Assembly (NCBI GenBank): GCA_022865345.1
Contig: JALHSU010000097.1
Location: 1-37,145, forward strand
DNA: 37,145 nucleotides
Reading direction: 5' to 3'
Origin: Candidatus Zixiibacteriota bacterium
Lineage (GTDB): Bacteria > Zixibacteria > MSB-5A5 > RBG-16-43-9
Made by a program: the position numbers and the translations under genes. The notes beneath the pieces were generated by a model. That model saw nothing but the letters and a program-made list of their open reading frames with translations, ran no database searches and had not been told where the DNA came from. Positions 3,314 to 15,750 of this stretch are shown in pieces; the stretch's first letter is position 1, and each line of letters begins with the position of its first letter.

Positions 3314-5800
3314 ATGCTTAAATTCGCCCAGATAGCTTTTCCTTTCTCTTTAAGGAAGACTTTCACCTACAGCATACCTGATAATCTAAGGGAGAGAATA
3401 AAACCCGGTCAAAGGGCATTGGTTCCCTTTGGCAGGGAAAGGAAACTGGGATTTATTGTCAGCCTTTGCCCCATTTCGGAAGTGAAGAATACCAGGGAGC
3501 TTTTGGATCTTATCGATGATGAGCCGATCATTTTACCTGAAATCCTGGAGCTCACCAGATGGGTTTCAGAATACTATTATGCCCCCTGGGGGGGATGTCT
3601 TAGAGCCGCCATTCCTCCAGAGCTGCAGGTACACAGTCTGCTCTGGGTTCACAAGAAAGAGTCTCCCCTTCTGGATTATGAAGATACCAGAACAAAGTTT
3701 TCCTCCATTGAGAAGAAAATCTTAAACGCACTTGAGGAGAAAAAACCTCAGAAAATAACTTTTTTGGAGAAAAAAATCGGCACCAGAGGTTTGTATTCTA
3801 CCTTGCATTCGTTAGAACAAAAAGGGAAGGTCGAATTATTTTATGAGTTGAGCAAGTCTAAATCCAGCATAAAGTATGAGAAGATGGTCTCTTTAAAGGG
3901 GAAATCTCCGGAAGAGATTAAGTTGCTCGAAACCTATATCGAGACCAGCCGGAAAAAATCTTCAAAGGAAGCTTTATTACTCCAGCTGTTGATAGAGGAG
4001 AACAGAGAATTTTCCTTAAGGGAGATAAACCAAAGGATCAACCGGGCATCTCAGATTCTGAATGGATTAGAAAAAAAAAGGCTGGTCAAAACCTTCTATA
4101 AAGAAAAACTAAGAGAGCCCCTCTGGGGGATGAATGTGGAGCCGGCTCAGGAATTTTCTTTAACCCGGGAACAAAAAGAGGTTCTGGAGAGCTTGGGCCA
4201 GGGGCTAACCGAGGAGAAATATCAACCCTTTTTGCTGTACGGGGTAACCGGAAGCGGAAAGACACATGTGTATATAGAAATCATCAAGAAAGTTCTGGGA
4301 AAAGGAAAGACAGCTTTAGTCTTGGTCCCGGAGATTTCCTTAACTCCTCAGATCATTTCCCGTTTCAAATCCGTTTTTGGAGAACAAGTGGGGCCTTTTC
4401 ATTCCAGCCTTTCTCCGGGTGAAAGGTTTGATGCCTGGAGAGGGATTAAATCCGGAAAAATTAAAGTGGTTGTGGGGACCAGATCAGCCATCTTCTCCCC
4501 TCTTTCTAATCTGGGGATAATAGTGGTGGATGAGGAACACGATTCTTCTTACAAACAGAAAGAACCCGACCCAAAATATAATGCCAGGGACTTAGCTTTG
4601 GTCAGGGGAAAAATGAATAAAGCTCTGGTGATTTTAGGCTCAGCCACACCCAGTTTAGAAAGCTTTTACAATGTGGAAAAGGGTAAGTATATTCTCCTGC
4701 AGTTGACACAGAGAGTAGACCAGATCCCGCTTCCTGAAGTCGAGATATCTGACCTGAGAGAGGAGAGGAAAAAGGGTAACTATTCGATATTTTCCTCTGA
4801 GCTTTCTTCTCAGATGAAAAAAAAGATCGAAAAGGGCGAGCAGGTGATTCTCTTTTTAAACCGCAGGGGTTTTTCCAATTTCGTCAAATGTCAGGAGTGC
4901 GGTTACGTTTTCCGCTGCCCGAACTGTGACATAACCCTGAATTTTCACCGTACCGATTTCTCTTTGCGCTGTCACTACTGCAACTACATAGTCCAGGCGA
5001 GTGACCTCTGCCCTCAATGTAACGGAAGTAGATTTGCATACAAAGGAATGGGAACCCAGCGCGTGGAGGAAGAGATAAAAAAGCTTTTCCCTGGAACCCC
5101 TGTCCGCCGTATGGATCAGGACACCACTTACGCAAAGGATTCCCATTACGAAATCCTCAAAGGGTTTGCTTCAGGAGATTTCAACCTGCTTCTGGGAACT
5201 CAAATGGTAACCAAAGGTCTTGATTTTCCGGATGTGACCTTAGTCGGAGTGATTTTAGCTGATACCTCTTTAGATTTTCCGGATTTCAGAGCAAGGGAGA
5301 AAACCTTCCAGCTTTTGACTCAGGTGGCAGGAAGAGCCGGCAGGGGAAAATTAGGAGGGGAAGTCATCTTGCAAACTTATTATCCTGAGGACTGGGCAAT
5401 CAAGCTCTCTGCTAAGCAAAATTTTCAGGAGTTTTATAAAAAAGAGATAGAAGAAAGAAAGGAGCTTTTTTACCCGCCCTTTAGCCGGCTGGTTTTAATC
5501 AGATTTCAGGGAAAAGAAGAAGTGAAAGTCCAGAAGGCAGCGGAATCTTTTGGTAGTAAGTTGTCGGACAGACTAAAGGCTATAGGCTATAGTCTAAAAT
5601 CAAAGTCTATCCAGATTCTTGGCCCCACATCGTCACCTCTTCCCAAGATAAAAAATGATTACCGCTTTCAGATTTTGATAAAGACCAAAGAGGTTCGAAC
5701 AATGACTCAGACGATTAACTCTATTTTCGAAAAAGGCGCTGAAAAAAGATATTCCGGAGTCAAAATCTCAATTGACATCGATCCTCTGGATATAATGTAA
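3314..5800 (+). CDS. priA: Primosomal protein N', replication restart helicase PriA
   Basis: 828 residues, a little longer than the usual 730-800. PriA is a superfamily 2 3'-to-5' DNA helicase that recognises stalled forks and reloads the replisome. The N-terminal DNA-binding region begins FAQIAFPFSLRKTFTYSIP. The helicase core has Walker A GVTGSGKTHVY near residue 310 and Walker B VDEEHDSSYKQ near 405. A zinc-binding insert with eight cysteines (CQECGYVFRCPNCD, then CHYCN and CPQCNG, about 525-570) separates the helicase lobes, and the second lobe ends in the QVAGRAGRG motif. All hallmark motifs are intact. The gene stands alone, with a large gap upstream and a repeat-rich gap downstream, so it is probably monocistronic. 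The ATG at 3314 matches the family start, though its ribosome-binding site is weak. Confidence 0.97.
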   Translation: MLKFAQIAFPFSLRKTFTYSIPDNLRERIKPGQRALVPFGRERKLGFIVSLCPISEVKNTRELLDLIDDEPIILPEILELTRWVSEYYYAPWGGCLRAAIPPELQVHSLLWVHKKESPLLDYEDTRTKFSSIEKKILNALEEKKPQKITFLEKKIGTRGLYSTLHSLEQKGKVELFYELSKSKSSIKYEKMVSLKGKSPEEIKLLETYIETSRKKSSKEALLLQLLIEENREFSLREINQRINRASQILNGLEKKRLVKTFYKEKLREPLWGMNVEPAQEFSLTREQKEVLESLGQGLTEEKYQPFLLYGVTGSGKTHVYIEIIKKVLGKGKTALVLVPEISLTPQIISRFKSVFGEQVGPFHSSLSPGERFDAWRGIKSGKIKVVVGTRSAIFSPLSNLGIIVVDEEHDSSYKQKEPDPKYNARDLALVRGKMNKALVILGSATPSLESFYNVEKGKYILLQLTQRVDQIPLPEVEISDLREERKKGNYSIFSSELSSQMKKKIEKGEQVILFLNRRGFSNFVKCQECGYVFRCPNCDITLNFHRTDFSLRCHYCNYIVQASDLCPQCNGSRFAYKGMGTQRVEEEIKKLFPGTPVRRMDQDTTYAKDSHYEILKGFASGDFNLLLGTQMVTKGLDFPDVTLVGVILADTSLDFPDFRAREKTFQLLTQVAGRAGRGKLGGEVILQTYYPEDWAIKLSAKQNFQEFYKKEIEERKELFYPPFSRLVLIRFQGKEEVKVQKAAESFGSKLSDRLKAIGYSLKSKSIQILGPTSSPLPKIKNDYRFQILIKTKEVRTMTQTINSIFEKGAEKRYSGVKISIDIDPLDIM

Positions 5801-8046: not shown

Positions 8047-9573
8047 ATGATTTTACTCCTGGTCATGGATGGTTTTGGGATAAATGAAAAAAAAGAAGGG
8101 AATGCCATTGCCCTGGCAAAAAAGCCGAATTTAGATCGGCTGCTTGTTGATTATCCTCACACGGTTTTAGGAGCATCAGGTCTGGATGTAGGTCTGCCTG
8201 AGGGACAGATGGGGAATAGCGAGGTGGGACATCTTAACTTTGGAGCAGGAAGAATCGTCTATCAGGAAATAACCAGGATAGATAAAGCCATCCAAGATGG
8301 CTCTTTTTTTAAGAACAAAGTTCTGCTTGAGGCGATGAATAAAGCTAAAGAGAACAATTCTGCTCTGCATCTGATGGGATTGGTATCAGACGGAGGAGTG
8401 CATAGTTCCTTGAATCACCTTTATGCCTTATTGAGATTAGCTAAGGATAAAGGGGTCAGAGAACTATACGTGCACGCTTTTATGGATGGACGAGATACTT
8501 CACCAACTGCAGGAAAAGAATATATAAAACGACTTTTAGAAAAATTCAGAGAATATAAGGTTGGCACTCTGTCAACTGTAGTGGGTAGATATTATGCAAT
8601 GGACCGGGACAAAAGATGGGAAAGAGTTGAAAAGGCATACCGGGCAATGGTCTACGGAGAGGGGAAATTGACCTCTGATCCGGTCAAAGCGGTAGAGGAA
8701 TCTTACCAAGAAGAGGTAACTGATGAATTTATCAAACCTATTGTCGTCTCTGAATCAGGTAACCCTCTTTCCGGAAGGATAAAAGAAAAAGACGTAGGGA
8801 TATTTTTCAATTTTAGAGCAGACAGAGCACGGGAGCTTTCATACGTTTTGTCAGAAAAGGATTTTAAGGAATTTGATAGAGGGAATAACCTGACTATTCA
8901 TCTGGTTAATCTGACCCAGTATGACGAAAAACTCCAAACCCCTGTCGCTTTTCCACCAGGCAAGCTCAAAAATATCCTGCCTGGGGTTTTGTCAAAGCGA
9001 GGTCTGAAACAATTACGTATTGCTGAGACAGAGAAATATGCACATGTAACCTTCTTCTTCAATGGAGGAGAAGAAAAACCGTTTGAAGGCGAGGATAGAA
9101 TCCTGGTTCACTCTCCTAAAGTACCAACTTATGATTTAAAACCGGAGATGAGCGCCTATGAGGTAACAGATAAAGTTGTCCAGGCAATCGAGTCAAAAAA
9201 ATATGATTTCATCCTTTTGAACTATGCCAATCCGGATATGGTTGGACATACCGGGATCCTGGAAGCAGCCATAAAGGCAGTAGAAGCAGTTGACACCTGC
9301 GTTGGAAGGGTTGTAGATGCTGTTAGGAATGTAGGTAGCACAGCAATGGTCACCGCAGACCACGGAAATGCGGAGATGATGGTGGATTATAACAACGGCG
9401 AGCCTTTCACTGCCCACACCACAGATTTGGTCCCGTTTATTTTAGTTAAAAATGGTTTCAACGGAAAATTAAGACCCAGAGGCATTTTAGCAGACGTAGC
9501 TCCCACGATTTTGTATTTAATGGGAATAGATAAACCTACAGAGATGGATGGGGTAAATTTGATTTTGTTGTAA
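8047..9573 (+). CDS. gpmI: 2,3-bisphosphoglycerate-independent phosphoglycerate mutase
   Basis: 508 residues, typical of the iPGM family. It interconverts 3- and 2-phosphoglycerate in glycolysis and gluconeogenesis using two metal ions and a phosphoserine intermediate. The start LLVMDGFGINEKKEGNAIA holds the first metal-binding aspartate, GQMGNSEVGHLNFGAGR holds the catalytic serine, FMDGRDTSP and GRYYAMDRDKRW bind phosphosugar, and NYANPDMVGHTG and TADHGNAE supply further metal ligands. All are intact. It starts 10 nt after purM with AAAGG upstream. A RAYT-associated palindrome begins 5 nt after the stop. Confidence 0.97.
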   Translation: MILLLVMDGFGINEKKEGNAIALAKKPNLDRLLVDYPHTVLGASGLDVGLPEGQMGNSEVGHLNFGAGRIVYQEITRIDKAIQDGSFFKNKVLLEAMNKAKENNSALHLMGLVSDGGVHSSLNHLYALLRLAKDKGVRELYVHAFMDGRDTSPTAGKEYIKRLLEKFREYKVGTLSTVVGRYYAMDRDKRWERVEKAYRAMVYGEGKLTSDPVKAVEESYQEEVTDEFIKPIVVSESGNPLSGRIKEKDVGIFFNFRADRARELSYVLSEKDFKEFDRGNNLTIHLVNLTQYDEKLQTPVAFPPGKLKNILPGVLSKRGLKQLRIAETEKYAHVTFFFNGGEEKPFEGEDRILVHSPKVPTYDLKPEMSAYEVTDKVVQAIESKKYDFILLNYANPDMVGHTGILEAAIKAVEAVDTCVGRVVDAVRNVGSTAMVTADHGNAEMMVDYNNGEPFTAHTTDLVPFILVKNGFNGKLRPRGILADVAPTILYLMGIDKPTEMDGVNLILL

Positions 9574-9577
9574 TTTT

Positions 9578-9604
9578 GTAGAGACGCATAGCATGCGTCT
9601 CTAT
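9578..9604. repeat. REP palindrome, copy 1
   Basis: Arms AGAGACGCAT (9580-9589) and ATGCGTCTCT (9593-9602) flank AGC. The same stem occurs inside and just after the RAYT gene downstream (10726-10752 and 10989-11011), where the loop is TCG. Confidence 0.85.
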
Positions 9605-9691
9605 TCCAAAAGTAAAGAATTTTTTTGAGTTATTGGATATTTCCCAAGTTAGATCGAGTAACATATTAAGAGATGGTGGAGAAGAGTTTAC

Positions 9692-10384
9692 ATGATAAAT
9701 TTTAAACTAATAGGAATCAAATTAGGTGAAGGACTAAAATATGACACTTCGATTAATGAAATCAACAGAATAGCAACAGCCATTTTTGATTTTCCAATCT
9801 CGTCTCATCCACACGGAAGTATCACATCCTCACGTTCTCAATTAATTTTTGATTGGGTAATGACTTTGGCTGAACGGCATATCGCTGACGAAAGAAAATT
9901 TCAGTTACTCCAGGAGTTTATTAATGTTTTAACTCCAGAAAATAGTCCTTTAAGAAATCTGATAAAAGAAACTACAGGAATTTATAAATTTGATTTTTGG
10001 AGTATAATTCATAAGGATATTGTTAGTGCTGCAAAAAACAAATTCGAAGATGGTTATTATGCTGACGCCGTAGAGTCAACTCTCAAGGAAATTAATATTC
10101 GTGTTAAGAAAATAGTTCAAGATAAGATTGGGCAAGAGTTTGATGGTGCATCTCTCATGAATAGAGCATTTTCTCTGGAACATCCAATAATAATCTTAGA
10201 TGACCTCTCATCTGAAACTGGTAAAAACATACAAAAAGGATATATGCAAATTTTCGCTGGAGCAATGACGGGAATTAGAAATCCTAAGGCACATGAGAAT
10301 ATAGTTATTGATAAAGAAAGAGCAATGCACTTTCTCTTTTTGACAAGTCTCTTAATGCAAATATTAGATGAATCAAATTACTAA
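9692..10384 (+). CDS. TIGR02391/Ymh-family protein, HEPN-like
   Basis: 230 residues. The C-terminal half resembles the Hypoth_Ymh (TIGR02391) family: a helical DAVESTLKEINIRVKKIV block, then FAGAMTGIRNPKAHEN. The RNPKAH segment (R196 to H201) fits the R-x4-6-H motif of HEPN ribonuclease domains. Family members are often found in accessory, plasmid, phage or defence contexts, but few have been characterised, so the RNase role is inferred from the motif. The start ATG has GGAGAAG upstream. The gene is AT-richer than gpmI and sits beside a RAYT locus, which suits accessory DNA. No antitoxin-like partner (MNT, HTH) is adjacent. Confidence 0.65.
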   Translation: MINFKLIGIKLGEGLKYDTSINEINRIATAIFDFPISSHPHGSITSSRSQLIFDWVMTLAERHIADERKFQLLQEFINVLTPENSPLRNLIKETTGIYKFDFWSIIHKDIVSAAKNKFEDGYYADAVESTLKEINIRVKKIVQDKIGQEFDGASLMNRAFSLEHPIIILDDLSSETGKNIQKGYMQIFAGAMTGIRNPKAHENIVIDKERAMHFLFLTSLLMQILDESNY

Positions 10385-10434
10385 AATTTGAGTTTGGTCT
10401 GGGAGCAGCATATCAAGTCAAATCTCATAGAAGA

Positions 10435-10985
10435 GTGAAGAAAAGGATGACACTCTATAAAAACCAATACCGCATCGAATCCACCCGCTTAAAAGAGTGG
10501 GTTTACTCCCGTTACGGCTATTATTTCGTAACCATCTGCACAAAAGACAAGCAGTATTTTTTCGGTGACATTGTAGCAGATAAAATGCAATTGTCAGAGA
10601 TAGGGAAAATAGTTGCTGGCGAATGGGGAAAAACAGATAGTATTAGGGATTACGCAAAATTGGATGAATGCGTGATAATGCTCAATCATTTGCACGGGAT
10701 AGTTATAATTCAGAATGAAAACAACGTAGAGACGCATTCGATGCGTCTCTACGAAAAGATAATTTATCAAATATCATTCGTGGATTCAAATCTGCCACGG
10801 TCAAAAAAGCTCACCAAAAAGGTTTTACGAATTTTGCCTGGCAATCCAGATTTTATGACCACATTATCCGCAATGAAAAAGAGCTACATGACATTCGGCA
10901 ATATATTGTTTATAATTCCTTAAAATGGCAATTTGATGAGGAGAATCAAAATAATATAAAGAAACAAACCGATAACAAAAAATAA
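10435..10985 (+). pseudogene. Frameshifted REP-associated tyrosine transposase (RAYT, Y1/IS200-like)
   Basis: The first half reads MTLYKNQYRIESTRLKEW and GYYFVTICTKDKQYFFG, then LNHLHGIVII, where HLH is the HUH metal-binding motif of Y1 transposases. After the REP palindrome inside the gene (10726-10752) the expected continuation is found one frame over: DNLSNIIRGFKSATVKK, then WQSRFYDHIIRNEKELHD and IRQYIVYNSLKWQFDEEN, ending at a stop at 10983-10985. That part holds the tyrosine of FYDHIIR, expected to be the nucleophile. Without the shift, translation stops at 10923 in unrelated sequence. One extra base (or two lost) near 10750-10756 explains it. RAYTs mobilise or maintain REP palindromes. 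The start may be GTG at 10435 or ATG at 10447. Confidence 0.85.
10726..10752. repeat. REP palindrome, copy 2, inside the RAYT gene
   Basis: Perfect arms GTAGAGACGCAT and ATGCGTCTCTAC flank TCG. In the upstream frame it encodes VETHSMRLY. The frame break of the RAYT gene falls at its right edge. Confidence 0.9.
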
Positions 10986-10988
10986 TTC

Positions 10989-11011
10989 AGAGACGCATTC
11001 GATGCGTCTCT
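10989..11011. repeat. REP palindrome, copy 3, after the RAYT gene
   Basis: Arms AGAGACGCAT and ATGCGTCTCT flank TCG, the same loop as copy 2. It begins 4 nt after the restored RAYT stop codon and ends 21 nt before the lnt ATG. Confidence 0.9.
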
Positions 11012-11032
11012 ACAAAGTTCCCAAAGCCATTG

Positions 11033-12523
11033 ATGACTTATAAAAAAACAATCCTTTTCATTTTTATATCATCCTTTCTTTTCTCTTTATCCTTTCCCCC
11101 TTTCCCTGCCGGTTTTTTTGCTTATTTTGCTCTGGTTTTTTTGTTTTTCGCTTTAGAGGATAAAGGTGGCTGGGAATCTTTTAAATTAGGTTACATCTGG
11201 GGACTGGTCACCAATGTATTGCTTTTATACTGGATCACCTGGGCTACCCTGCCGGGGATCCTGGGAGCTATCTTGATTTTATCTCTGTATACTGCTTTTC
11301 TTTTTCTTTTTTACTCCTGGGTTCAAAAAACGCTCAAGGAAAAAGCTGTCTTTTTTATGCCTTTTCTCTGGATAATGCTGGAATATGGCAGGTCCCTTTT
11401 TGAGATTGGCTTTCCCTGGCTTAATTTATCCTATACCCAGACCTATTACCTGAGCTTGATCCAGTATGTATCTATTATAGGAAATTATGGCGTATCCTTC
11501 TGGATCGTCTGGGTAAATGTTCTCGTATACCTGGGAGTCAAAAACTTTGCCTCCAGCAGAAAAGTATTAACTTATGCGGCTTTAATTCTCCTTCTGTTCT
11601 TAGCGCCGTTTGTGTATGGCAACAAAGTCTTGAATCAAAAAACAGACGCCAGACAGGTTGATATCGCCTTAGTTCAGGGGAATATCCCCCAGGATGTCAA
11701 GTGGGATTACAAGCTCCTGGATTATAACTTTCAGGTTTTCACAGATCTTACCAGAAAGATACCTGAAAAAGTCGACCTTATCTTATGGCCTGAAACTGCC
11801 GCTCCCTGCTATCTGCGGGCTGAGCCTAAATATTTTTCACTAATCAAATCCTTGTCTGATTCTCTTCAGACTCCCCTGGTTTTGGGCACTAACGACTATT
11901 CAGTGCTGGGTCAGGGGAATTATCTTTACTACAATTCTGCTTTTTACTTTGACCCTTATCAGAACAATTTTGCGGCATATAATAAAATCCATCTTGTGCC
12001 TTTTTCAGAATGGGTCCCTTATCCGAAAGTCTTAGGCTGGCTTTACAAGATAAAATTCGGGCTTTCAGATTATACTCCGGGAAAAGATTATATACTTTTC
12101 GAAAATCCCAAAGGTAAATTCCCGGCTTTGATCTGCTTTGAGGCGGTTTTCCCGGATCTGGTTAGAAAATTCGTCTTAAAGGGAGCAGACTTTGTAGTGA
12201 ACATAACCAATGACGGCTGGTGGGGAAAAACAGCCGGACCTTATCAGCATGCCCAGATAAACGTGTTCCGGGCAATTGAGAATCGGATAAGTATTGCCCG
12301 GTGTGCCAACACCGGGGTTTCGATGTTTGTGGACCCGTATGGAAGAATAACCCAGAAGACAAAAATCTACGTCCAGGATGTTTTGACCGGTAAGATTCCG
12401 CTGAGAAATGAGCTGACCTTTTATACCCGATATGGCGACTGGTTTGCTAAGGGAGTCTCTCTGCTTTCTATTCTGATCTTAGCGTATAGTCTTTTATGGA
12501 AGGTCGTAGGTGATAGGAAGTAG
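11033..12523 (+). CDS. lnt: Apolipoprotein N-acyltransferase
   Basis: About 496 residues. Lnt transfers the third acyl chain to the N-terminal cysteine of lipoproteins in the inner membrane, the last maturation step before Lol export. Several membrane helices fill the first 200 residues (for example TILFIFISSFLFSLSF and KVLTYAALILLLFLAPF). The nitrilase-like periplasmic domain follows with the Glu-Lys-Cys triad in context: LWPETAAP (E near 253), YNKIHLVPFSEW (K near 318) and LICFEAVFPD (C near 368). One more helix closes the protein. The frame also offers a TTG at 11030; the ATG at 11033 is preferred. A secreted propeller protein follows 35 nt downstream. lolD and a lolC/E gene lie at the other end of the window. 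Confidence 0.95.
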   Translation: MTYKKTILFIFISSFLFSLSFPPFPAGFFAYFALVFLFFALEDKGGWESFKLGYIWGLVTNVLLLYWITWATLPGILGAILILSLYTAFLFLFYSWVQKTLKEKAVFFMPFLWIMLEYGRSLFEIGFPWLNLSYTQTYYLSLIQYVSIIGNYGVSFWIVWVNVLVYLGVKNFASSRKVLTYAALILLLFLAPFVYGNKVLNQKTDARQVDIALVQGNIPQDVKWDYKLLDYNFQVFTDLTRKIPEKVDLILWPETAAPCYLRAEPKYFSLIKSLSDSLQTPLVLGTNDYSVLGQGNYLYYNSAFYFDPYQNNFAAYNKIHLVPFSEWVPYPKVLGWLYKIKFGLSDYTPGKDYILFENPKGKFPALICFEAVFPDLVRKFVLKGADFVVNITNDGWWGKTAGPYQHAQINVFRAIENRISIARCANTGVSMFVDPYGRITQKTKIYVQDVLTGKIPLRNELTFYTRYGDWFAKGVSLLSILILAYSLLWKVVGDRK

Positions 12524-14772: not shown

Positions 14773-15750
14773 ATGGGGTTAGAGCTTCTCTATTTAGCAG
14801 ATCTGGACGAGCAAAAATGGGAAGAGCTTCTTTTTAACTCTCCTTTAAGCACCTTTTATCATAAGTCCAACTGGGCTAAACTCTGGTTTTCCAGTTTTGT
14901 TTATTTCACGCCTCTTTTTTTAGTTTATTCAGGCGAAAATGGAGAATACAAGGCAGGCTTCCCTTTTATCCTCTCTGATAAGTACAGGTTGAAAAGGGTC
15001 TATTCGATGCCGTTTGGCACCTATGGCGGAATGATTCTCTCTAAAGAGCTTTCGTCAGAGGAAGCCGAAGAGCTATACAGAAAAATCGATGAGGAGTTAA
15101 GGAAACTCAAACTGGCAAGTGTGGAGGTGATAGATTTTTTCGGCCAGCAAAAGAATCTTATCCAGTACGGTTATAATGCTGTGAAAGCTTATACCCATCT
15201 TCTGGATTTATCAAAATATATGGATGACCCGGTTCATAAGACCAAAAGGGGTGCAATCCAGGCAGAAAAAAAAGGTGTGAAGGTGGAGCCTCTCTCCTCA
15301 GTCGAGAAAATCAGAGATTGTTACAACCTGGTTCTGGAAAGAGACAAACGGCACGGGTTAAAAAGATCGAAATTCCCGCTCGGCTTGTACGAAAATATCT
15401 GGAATATTTTGAAATCCGGACAGGAGCTCCGATGGAGCGTGGCAACAGTCGACGAACAGACCATAGCCTTTCAGATAAATTTCCTTTTCAGGGATACTAT
15501 TTATTATTGGGAGGGTGCCTCCCTTTCTGAAGCTTTGAACCTGAGACCCAATGATGCTTTGTTCTCCGATACTATCCAGTGGGGGATTGCTCAGGGTTAT
15601 AGATACCTAAATTTAGGGGGTTCTCCGGAAAAAGCAGAAGGACTGGTAAGATTCAAAGAAGCCTGGGGAGGAGAAAGAAAAGATTACCTGATTTATTCAA
15701 AGAAGAAATTCTGGTATAAAACTGCTGAGAAGCTGAGACGACTTTTGTAG
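14773..15750 (+). CDS. FemAB/GNAT-like aminoacyl- or acyltransferase
   Basis: 325 residues, resembling the FemAB-related GNAT proteins (BioF2-like, Acetyltransf_6) often found in polysaccharide clusters. Visible blocks are FYHKSNWAKLWFSS, FPFILSDKYRLKRVYSMPFG, a DPVHKTKRGAIQAEKKGV segment, FQINFLFRDTIYYWEGAS, and YLNLGGSPEKAEGLVRFKEA with the usual aromatic-rich end. Such enzymes add amino acids or acyl groups to peptidoglycan or surface-glycan precursors; the substrate here is unknown. It follows the propeller gene by 6 nt and precedes glycosyltransferases. Its stop codon TAG is the second to fourth base of a GTAGGGACAG palindromic repeat, so the C-terminus has been set by the repeat. Confidence 0.8.
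   Translation: MGLELLYLADLDEQKWEELLFNSPLSTFYHKSNWAKLWFSSFVYFTPLFLVYSGENGEYKAGFPFILSDKYRLKRVYSMPFGTYGGMILSKELSSEEAEELYRKIDEELRKLKLASVEVIDFFGQQKNLIQYGYNAVKAYTHLLDLSKYMDDPVHKTKRGAIQAEKKGVKVEPLSSVEKIRDCYNLVLERDKRHGLKRSKFPLGLYENIWNILKSGQELRWSVATVDEQTIAFQINFLFRDTIYYWEGASLSEALNLRPNDALFSDTIQWGIAQGYRYLNLGGSPEKAEGLVRFKEAWGGERKDYLIYSKKKFWYKTAEKLRRLL

Follow-up and report, generated by a model that had tools for sequence, protein, structure and literature searches.

The window analyzed here, the whole 37,145-nt stretch of DNA from a draft MAG of a Candidatus Zixiibacteriota bacterium (2.86 Mb in 275 contigs, 96.64% complete), carries a compact block between a phosphoglycerate mutase gene (pgm, 8047-9573) and an apolipoprotein N-acyltransferase gene (lnt, 11030-12523). 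In order, the block comprises a left REP, a gene of the Hypoth_ymh family, a gene for a REP-associated tyrosine transposase (RAYT/TnpA-REP) split between two frames that meet at a REP, and a right REP (Table 1). Its G+C content is 0.32-0.37, compared with 0.41-0.44 outside. The two outer REPs point inward, with the GTAG foot on the forward strand at the left end and CTAC at the right end, which is the standard REPtron layout, and the internal REP has both feet. The locus is a REPtron of an uncultured bacterium, with a group 4 / subclass 2.4-like RAYT, an HUH-Y1 nuclease of single-strand DNA, lying between two inward REPs of its own family. Rfam gave no match at gathering score in 9000-11600.

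Table 1. Position, strand and details of the features that make up the REPtron block in the window.
Feature	Position	Strand	Details
Left outer REP	9578-9602	+	GTAG foot 9578-9581; 10-bp stem 9580-9602; 3-nt loop AGC
Hypoth_ymh/TIGR02391 family gene, 230 aa	9692-10384	+	Profile matches
RAYT N-terminal half (HUH part)	10435-10923	+	HLH 10687-10695; out of frame past the internal REP
Internal double-foot REP	10725-10753		GTAG 10726-10729; CTAC 10749-10752; 13-bp arms; 3-nt loop TCG
RAYT C-terminal half (DNLSNIIRGFKS...FYDHIIRNE...)	10758-10985	+	C-half HMM match; stop 10983-10985; frame differs from N half
Right outer REP, inverted	10989-11013	-	Stem 10989-11011; CTAC (GTAG on the - strand) 11010-11013

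The palindrome AGAGACGCAT-NNN-ATGCGTCTCT is found before, within and after the RAYT gene. An earlier note on this DNA was right in this respect: three exact copies of the 10-bp stem flank or interrupt the gene, the internal one at 10728-10750 (the range first given was 10726-10752), where the arms extend to a perfect 13 bp. These are the sole sites of the stem in the window, and the six half-sites (up to one mismatch allowed, all exact) compare with a shuffle mean of 1.65; none of 100 shuffles reached six. All three copies fold more stably than their own shuffles, with z-scores of -7.7 (internal), -7.7 (left) and -5.6 (right). A count of the stem over the whole genome, proposed in the same note as a check, bears the repeat out, with 71 copies at up to three mismatches and none for the reversed control. 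When exact arms and loops of 1-8 nt are required, there are 68 copies in this genome (G000), 33 in G001, 47 in the sister species (G002) and 15 in G003; a 21-base pattern with at most one mismatch yields 59, 30, 47 and 13 copies in the same genomes and 0 in the remaining 142 of the 146 searched. Among these 146 genomes, the REP is confined to its family of genomes G000-G003. We also considered CGTC-tagged repeats around a second-type Y1 transposase gene of the window's own genome (L017); their stems also carry GTAG feet, so we claim no new repeat. A palindrome of the L017 type occurs 29 times in forward and 16 times in reverse orientation in the genome (reversed control, 2 and 1).

No single frame reads through the whole RAYT gene. 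The N half with HLH is in the frame of 10435, with homology beginning at the ATG at 10447, and the FYDHIIRNE half is in the frame of 10437, so that one continuous catalytic frame is absent. As first described, the two parts meet at the internal REP copy, whose position is that of the linker between the HUH and Y halves. The NF047646 model (REP_Tyr_transpos) matches the broken ORF weakly (3e-4); matches of this ORF to Cas12c and Tiam_CC_Ex are weak as well, and we put them down to chance.

The same locus order (pgm, REPs, ymh, RAYT, REP, lnt) is present in the sister species, where the RAYT frame is open over 196 codons (190 from the ATG). The sister protein matches NF047646 at 4.7e-19 (68.7 bits, under the curated cut-off of 80) and gives a profile match to the E. 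coli TnpA-REP 4er8 at 6.1e-8; 4er8 is likewise the best solved match to its predicted structure (Foldseek E 7.1e-8, TM 0.52 by query length). Residues 93-116 of that model, the linker encoded by the REPs, are the sole internal segment to fall under pLDDT 50; most of the remaining predicted TnpA-REP fold is confident. The profiles and the model place the sister protein in the RAYT / TnpA-REP family, with a predicted HUH-Y1 transposase fold. It has a feature described for subclass 2.4, a REP in frame between the HUH and Y motifs; the window gene keeps the place of the REP and loses the frame. In the sister, the linker contains an inverted pair of REPs whose starts are 43 bp apart and which a 21-nt spacer separates, with GTAG to the left of the first and CTAC to the right of the second, where the window has a single REP with both feet. 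The alignment of the two genes has a single 43-nt gap in the linker, the window being the shorter, and the right flank is almost identical; 43 is not divisible by three, which puts the Y half out of frame. The loop of the window's internal REP (TCG) differs from those of both sister copies.

RAYT matches occur in at least 65 of the 146 relatives searched. Among the matches listed, we took the automatically selected loci plus 77 further places, leaving out the weakest, and obtained 110 N-half matches, of which 102 are then followed by a C half; from these we kept 94 distinct genes whose N end is complete. A linker palindrome (perfect, arms of at least 8 nt, loop of 2-8 nt) is present in 68 of these 94 genes, taken among the matches listed, compared with 1/94 for an equal-length stretch of the N half, 1/94 for the C half and about 0.5/94 for shuffled linkers. 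A second named set across phyla gave 46 of 63 genes (controls, 2/63 and 3/63); the sister gene belongs to both sets. The two halves share one frame in 91/94 and 59/63 genes, which is not the same as being intact, as six same-frame N/C pairs of the first survey and two of the 63-gene set contain stops. With the sets combined at a slightly looser cut, 116 of 160 distinct genes have a palindrome in the same linker: 43 have a single double-foot REP, 11 a pair consisting of a left-foot and a right-foot copy, and 62 other arrangements, the remaining 44 having no linker palindrome. The 8-nt arm recurs in the gene's own flanks in 42 of the 68 genes, compared with 20% in the flanks of other genes, in what is a crude test. 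Sixteen distinct RAYT-like genes have linkers of at most 30 nt, and for these a GTAG-footed palindrome lies within 500 nt outside the gene in 14 and in the linker in none.

In these relatives, then, an internal REP, single or paired, is normal, and its translation supplies a floppy linker joining the HUH and Y halves. It had been implied that the palindrome itself broke the window gene, which is wrong, as relatives carry the linker REP in frame. As one finding that would refute its reading, the earlier note had named intact relatives whose normal frame takes in the palindrome: such relatives do account for the palindrome, and they do not account for the frameshift. RAYTs related to that of the window are found also in records of Nitrospirae, Cyanobacteria, Geobacter, Chloroflexi and Moranbacteria (L153-L165, L169), and many of their internal REPs start with (GTA)GAGAC and have differing inner stems, so that the outer stem stays and the inner stem varies.

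Beyond the frame, the window gene has lost conserved residues. Window and sister differ at 15 N-half residues and, over the portion of the C half that was compared, at 8; the window departs at D19 (D in 27 of 28 relatives) and at W75, P79 and P172 (28 of 28 each), all four of which the sister keeps. The clearest departure of the sister is at position 55, where it has L and 26 of 28 relatives have I. Substitutions at invariant or near-invariant positions on the window branch are decay, which took place either before or after the frameshift. Pairwise dN/dS between window and sister is 0.18 for the N half and 0.08 for the C half of the RAYT, compared with 0.056 and 0.093 for neighboring housekeeping genes and 0.15 for ymh; these low values imply that the gene was long under selection and that the break is recent. 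Judged from its sequence, the protein of the window RAYT is very probably non-functional. Recent inactivation, one of the two readings first offered for this gene, is therefore well supported by the intact sister gene, the 43-nt difference in the internal REP region and the loss of conserved residues on the window branch only.

We also fetched 16 loci around RAYT or Y1_Tnp matches in the window's own genome (L016-L031). The stem half GAGACGCAT is present only in L021 and L022, both of which are the window gene, and of the other RAYT matches found in the assembly none lies within 1.5 kb of the stem. The REP family has probably been left without an intact cognate RAYT, and it is possible that an intact cognate lies outside the assembled part of this 96.64% complete genome.

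The best explanation, and one that we hold with considerable confidence, is that the window carries a REPtron RAYT whose linker REP region is 43 nt shorter and out of frame, making it a recent pseudogene. Most likely the pseudogene arose when a central deletion joined two internal REPs. The ancestor would have had an inverted REP pair in the linker, as in the sister, and the two left arms may have slipped or recombined to give the deletion, or the RAYT itself may have cut the DNA. Recombination between the left arms would remove 43 nt and throw the gene out of frame, matching the window, whereas the same event between the right arms would take out 42 nt and leave the frame as it was, a difference that arises because the two loops differ by one nucleotide.

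The direction of this change, from a pair to a single double-foot REP, is one that we infer. Of the nearest outgroups, L154 and L161 carry a lone internal REP, in frame and with a loop of 4 nt, and L155, L156 and L157 carry two. The pseudogene could thus have come about in the opposite order, a single internal REP being ancestral, a small change of loop length (3 nt in the window) breaking the frame and the sister later gaining a second REP. We think this order unlikely, since the sister's second unit shares the 3-nt loop type of the window REP and an almost identical right flank, so that a deletion needs one step and one substitution, whereas a gain in the sister would also need to bring in the 21-nt spacer.

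An error of assembly or sequencing, by which a true in-frame arrangement of internal REPs was collapsed by the assembler, would do away with the frameshift altogether. The genome is a draft MAG, and two of its contigs (C129 and C127, at L027 and L028) stop 5 nt past a RAYT gene's second internal palindrome, which shows that REPs disturb, and probably fragment, this assembly. The internal copy has its own loop, TCG, unlike both sister copies, and four substitutions at invariant or near-invariant residues would go unexplained by a collapse; we consider such an error improbable. Recent pseudogenization by a shortened linker REP region could also be given a function, in that the gene might use its internal inverted pair to turn itself off, its center being excised by the RAYT or by replication slippage at the REPs. 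A loss of 43 nt would put the gene out of frame and off, and a loss of 42 nt would leave it in frame and still on; if this were true, the spread of REPs would limit itself by breaking its own enzyme. We give this idea little credence, and the decay seen in the window argues that the change here is no reversible switch. We see instead the ordinary fate of a known kind of gene, which has lost its frame and is decaying.

Recoding at a stable hairpin, the other reading first proposed, is not supported, as the halves share one frame in nearly all of the relatives surveyed and the copy in the window shows decay. To join the RAYT halves, programmed -1 frameshifting or slippage would act across a junction where both are open and a stable hairpin stands. 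A AAA AAG is a strong slippery sequence in bacteria, and a scan of 10700-10925 found it, as the only X XXY YYZ heptamer, at 10803-10809, phased so that a -1 shift would lead from the frame of the N half into that of the C half. We regard this mechanism as most improbable: the hairpin precedes the heptamer by about 50 nt instead of following it, residues 119-133 (sister numbering) would be bypassed by a shift at 10803, among them K129, which is invariant in the 29-sequence alignment, related genes with linker palindromes keep one frame, and other invariant residues are lost as well. The same run of A encodes lysines in the normal frame of the intact sister.

Frame breaks are also found elsewhere. 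The 158 genes that have both halves show seven frame changes between the halves (two with incomplete domain ends), two within the N half and none within the C half, with linkers making up 14,061 of the 78,045 nt surveyed. When all seven were read by eye, L197 and L204 moved from the palindrome into the C and N domains. The break lies at the palindrome in the window gene (L021), L030 and L178 and adjacent to it in L097, while L208 reads ambiguously, and four or five of the nine breaks are at or near an internal REP. In-frame stops have no linker bias (five in N halves, seven in C halves and one in linkers). The internal REP as a hotspot of frame breaks is suggestive, and the cases are too few for a claim. 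A second RAYT of the window's own genome, L030 (G000:C182:3-424), likewise loses its frame where its internal palindrome lies; set beside L097, it seems to carry a truncated second unit in its internal REP pair. At another locus (L040, G020:C32, 1504-2345, reverse strand) there are two tandem RAYT genes, the upstream one consisting of an N half with a stop, with no C half of its own detected and with two palindromes beside its end.

The second gene of the block matches Pfam PF09509 (2.6e-27) and TIGR02391 (1.6e-20), and PADLOC models match its C-terminal part (PD-Lambda-3_B, 1.4e-13; Aga_HEPN, 1.2e-10). By these profile matches, the C-terminal part of the predicted protein resembles HEPN-type domains of defense proteins. 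Matches to ymh were found in 6 of the 146 genomes searched, the window's own included, and the own genome has a second match (G000:C25) that is partial, 58% identical and contains a stop.

The block varies among the related genomes. In G001, pgm and lnt adjoin with no REP between them, and in G003 (L144, C218) a solo double-foot REP with one arm mismatch stands at the pgm/lnt junction in place of the whole REP-ymh-RAYT-REP block; it could be the scar of a deletion between the outer REPs, or an independent insertion. The sister also contains a piece of about 375 bp (L032, G002:C96, 257-656), bounded by REPs and holding a nucleotidyltransferase gene, that is missing from the window. The left flank and loop of the window's left REP match the sister's REP1, and its right flank matches REP2. 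Either a deletion in the window or an insertion in the sister could account for this difference, and the differences across the neighborhood fit REPs acting as recombination boundaries, on the evidence of one locus. The small nucleotidyltransferase matches Pfam NTP_transf_2 and PADLOC PDC-S09. It is followed by a few codons, cut off at a REP, which we take to be an apparent HEPN partner.

Window and sister differ at 19 of 720 positions in 9576-10295 and 2 of 137 in 10713-10849, compared with some 10-25% in neighboring bins. Stretches elsewhere are equally quiet (3/180 in 4430-4609; 4/300 in 15041-15340), and we attach no special meaning to the two tracts; exchange between the two species there is possible.

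Most of what the locus contains is known from other systems. Subclass 2.4 of TnpA-REP (Quentin et al., 2018), which the mapping in PMC6006769 equates with RAYT group 4 of Bertels et al. (2017), carries intragenic REPs, in general located between HuH and Y and preserving the frame, as described in the part of PMC6006769 used here; the survey of relatives above agrees with this. The window RAYT and its relatives share with it an HUH-Y1 protein, a variable linker between HUH and Y, a REP in that linker (in frame in relatives), double-foot REPs and flanking REPs. The difference is that the window frame is broken at the internal REP, where the insertions described in those passages keep the frame; for its tree, the paper says, sequences lacking conserved HuH and Y motifs were left out. 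The REPtron or RAYT units of Nunvar et al. (2010; PMC2817692) are alike in having a RAYT between two inverted REPs that recur genome-wide, and unlike those units, as far as the consulted part of that paper describes them, the window has a second gene, of the ymh family, between its outer REPs, and an internal REP. Among the pseudogenized RAYTs of Pseudomonas and Stenotrophomonas (Nunvar et al., 2013; PMC3686654) there are likewise frameshifted RAYTs whose cognate REPs persist, with lesions that, in the portions of that study drawn on here, are not tied to an internal REP.

The closest precedent is a one-line remark in section 13 of PMC6006769, that a double-foot REP comes from a central deletion of an inverted REP dimer. 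The sister has the inverted dimer and the window the double-foot monomer, at the same position; what goes beyond the remark, as it stands in that section, is a pair of sister species with the change inside a gene and with a consequence for its frame, the direction of the change being the part that we reconstruct. In the open-licence literature we found no report of a frame-breaking deletion of an internal REP in a RAYT. The advance is a modest one, as the gene and the architecture were already known: a sister-pair example of the change from inverted REP dimer to double-foot REP, previously only proposed. It indicates that such a change inside a RAYT gene can cost the reading frame, and it links two questions, the reason for which group 4 RAYTs retain a REP within the coding region and the way in which RAYTs vanish while REPs remain, both of which become testable with strain collections.
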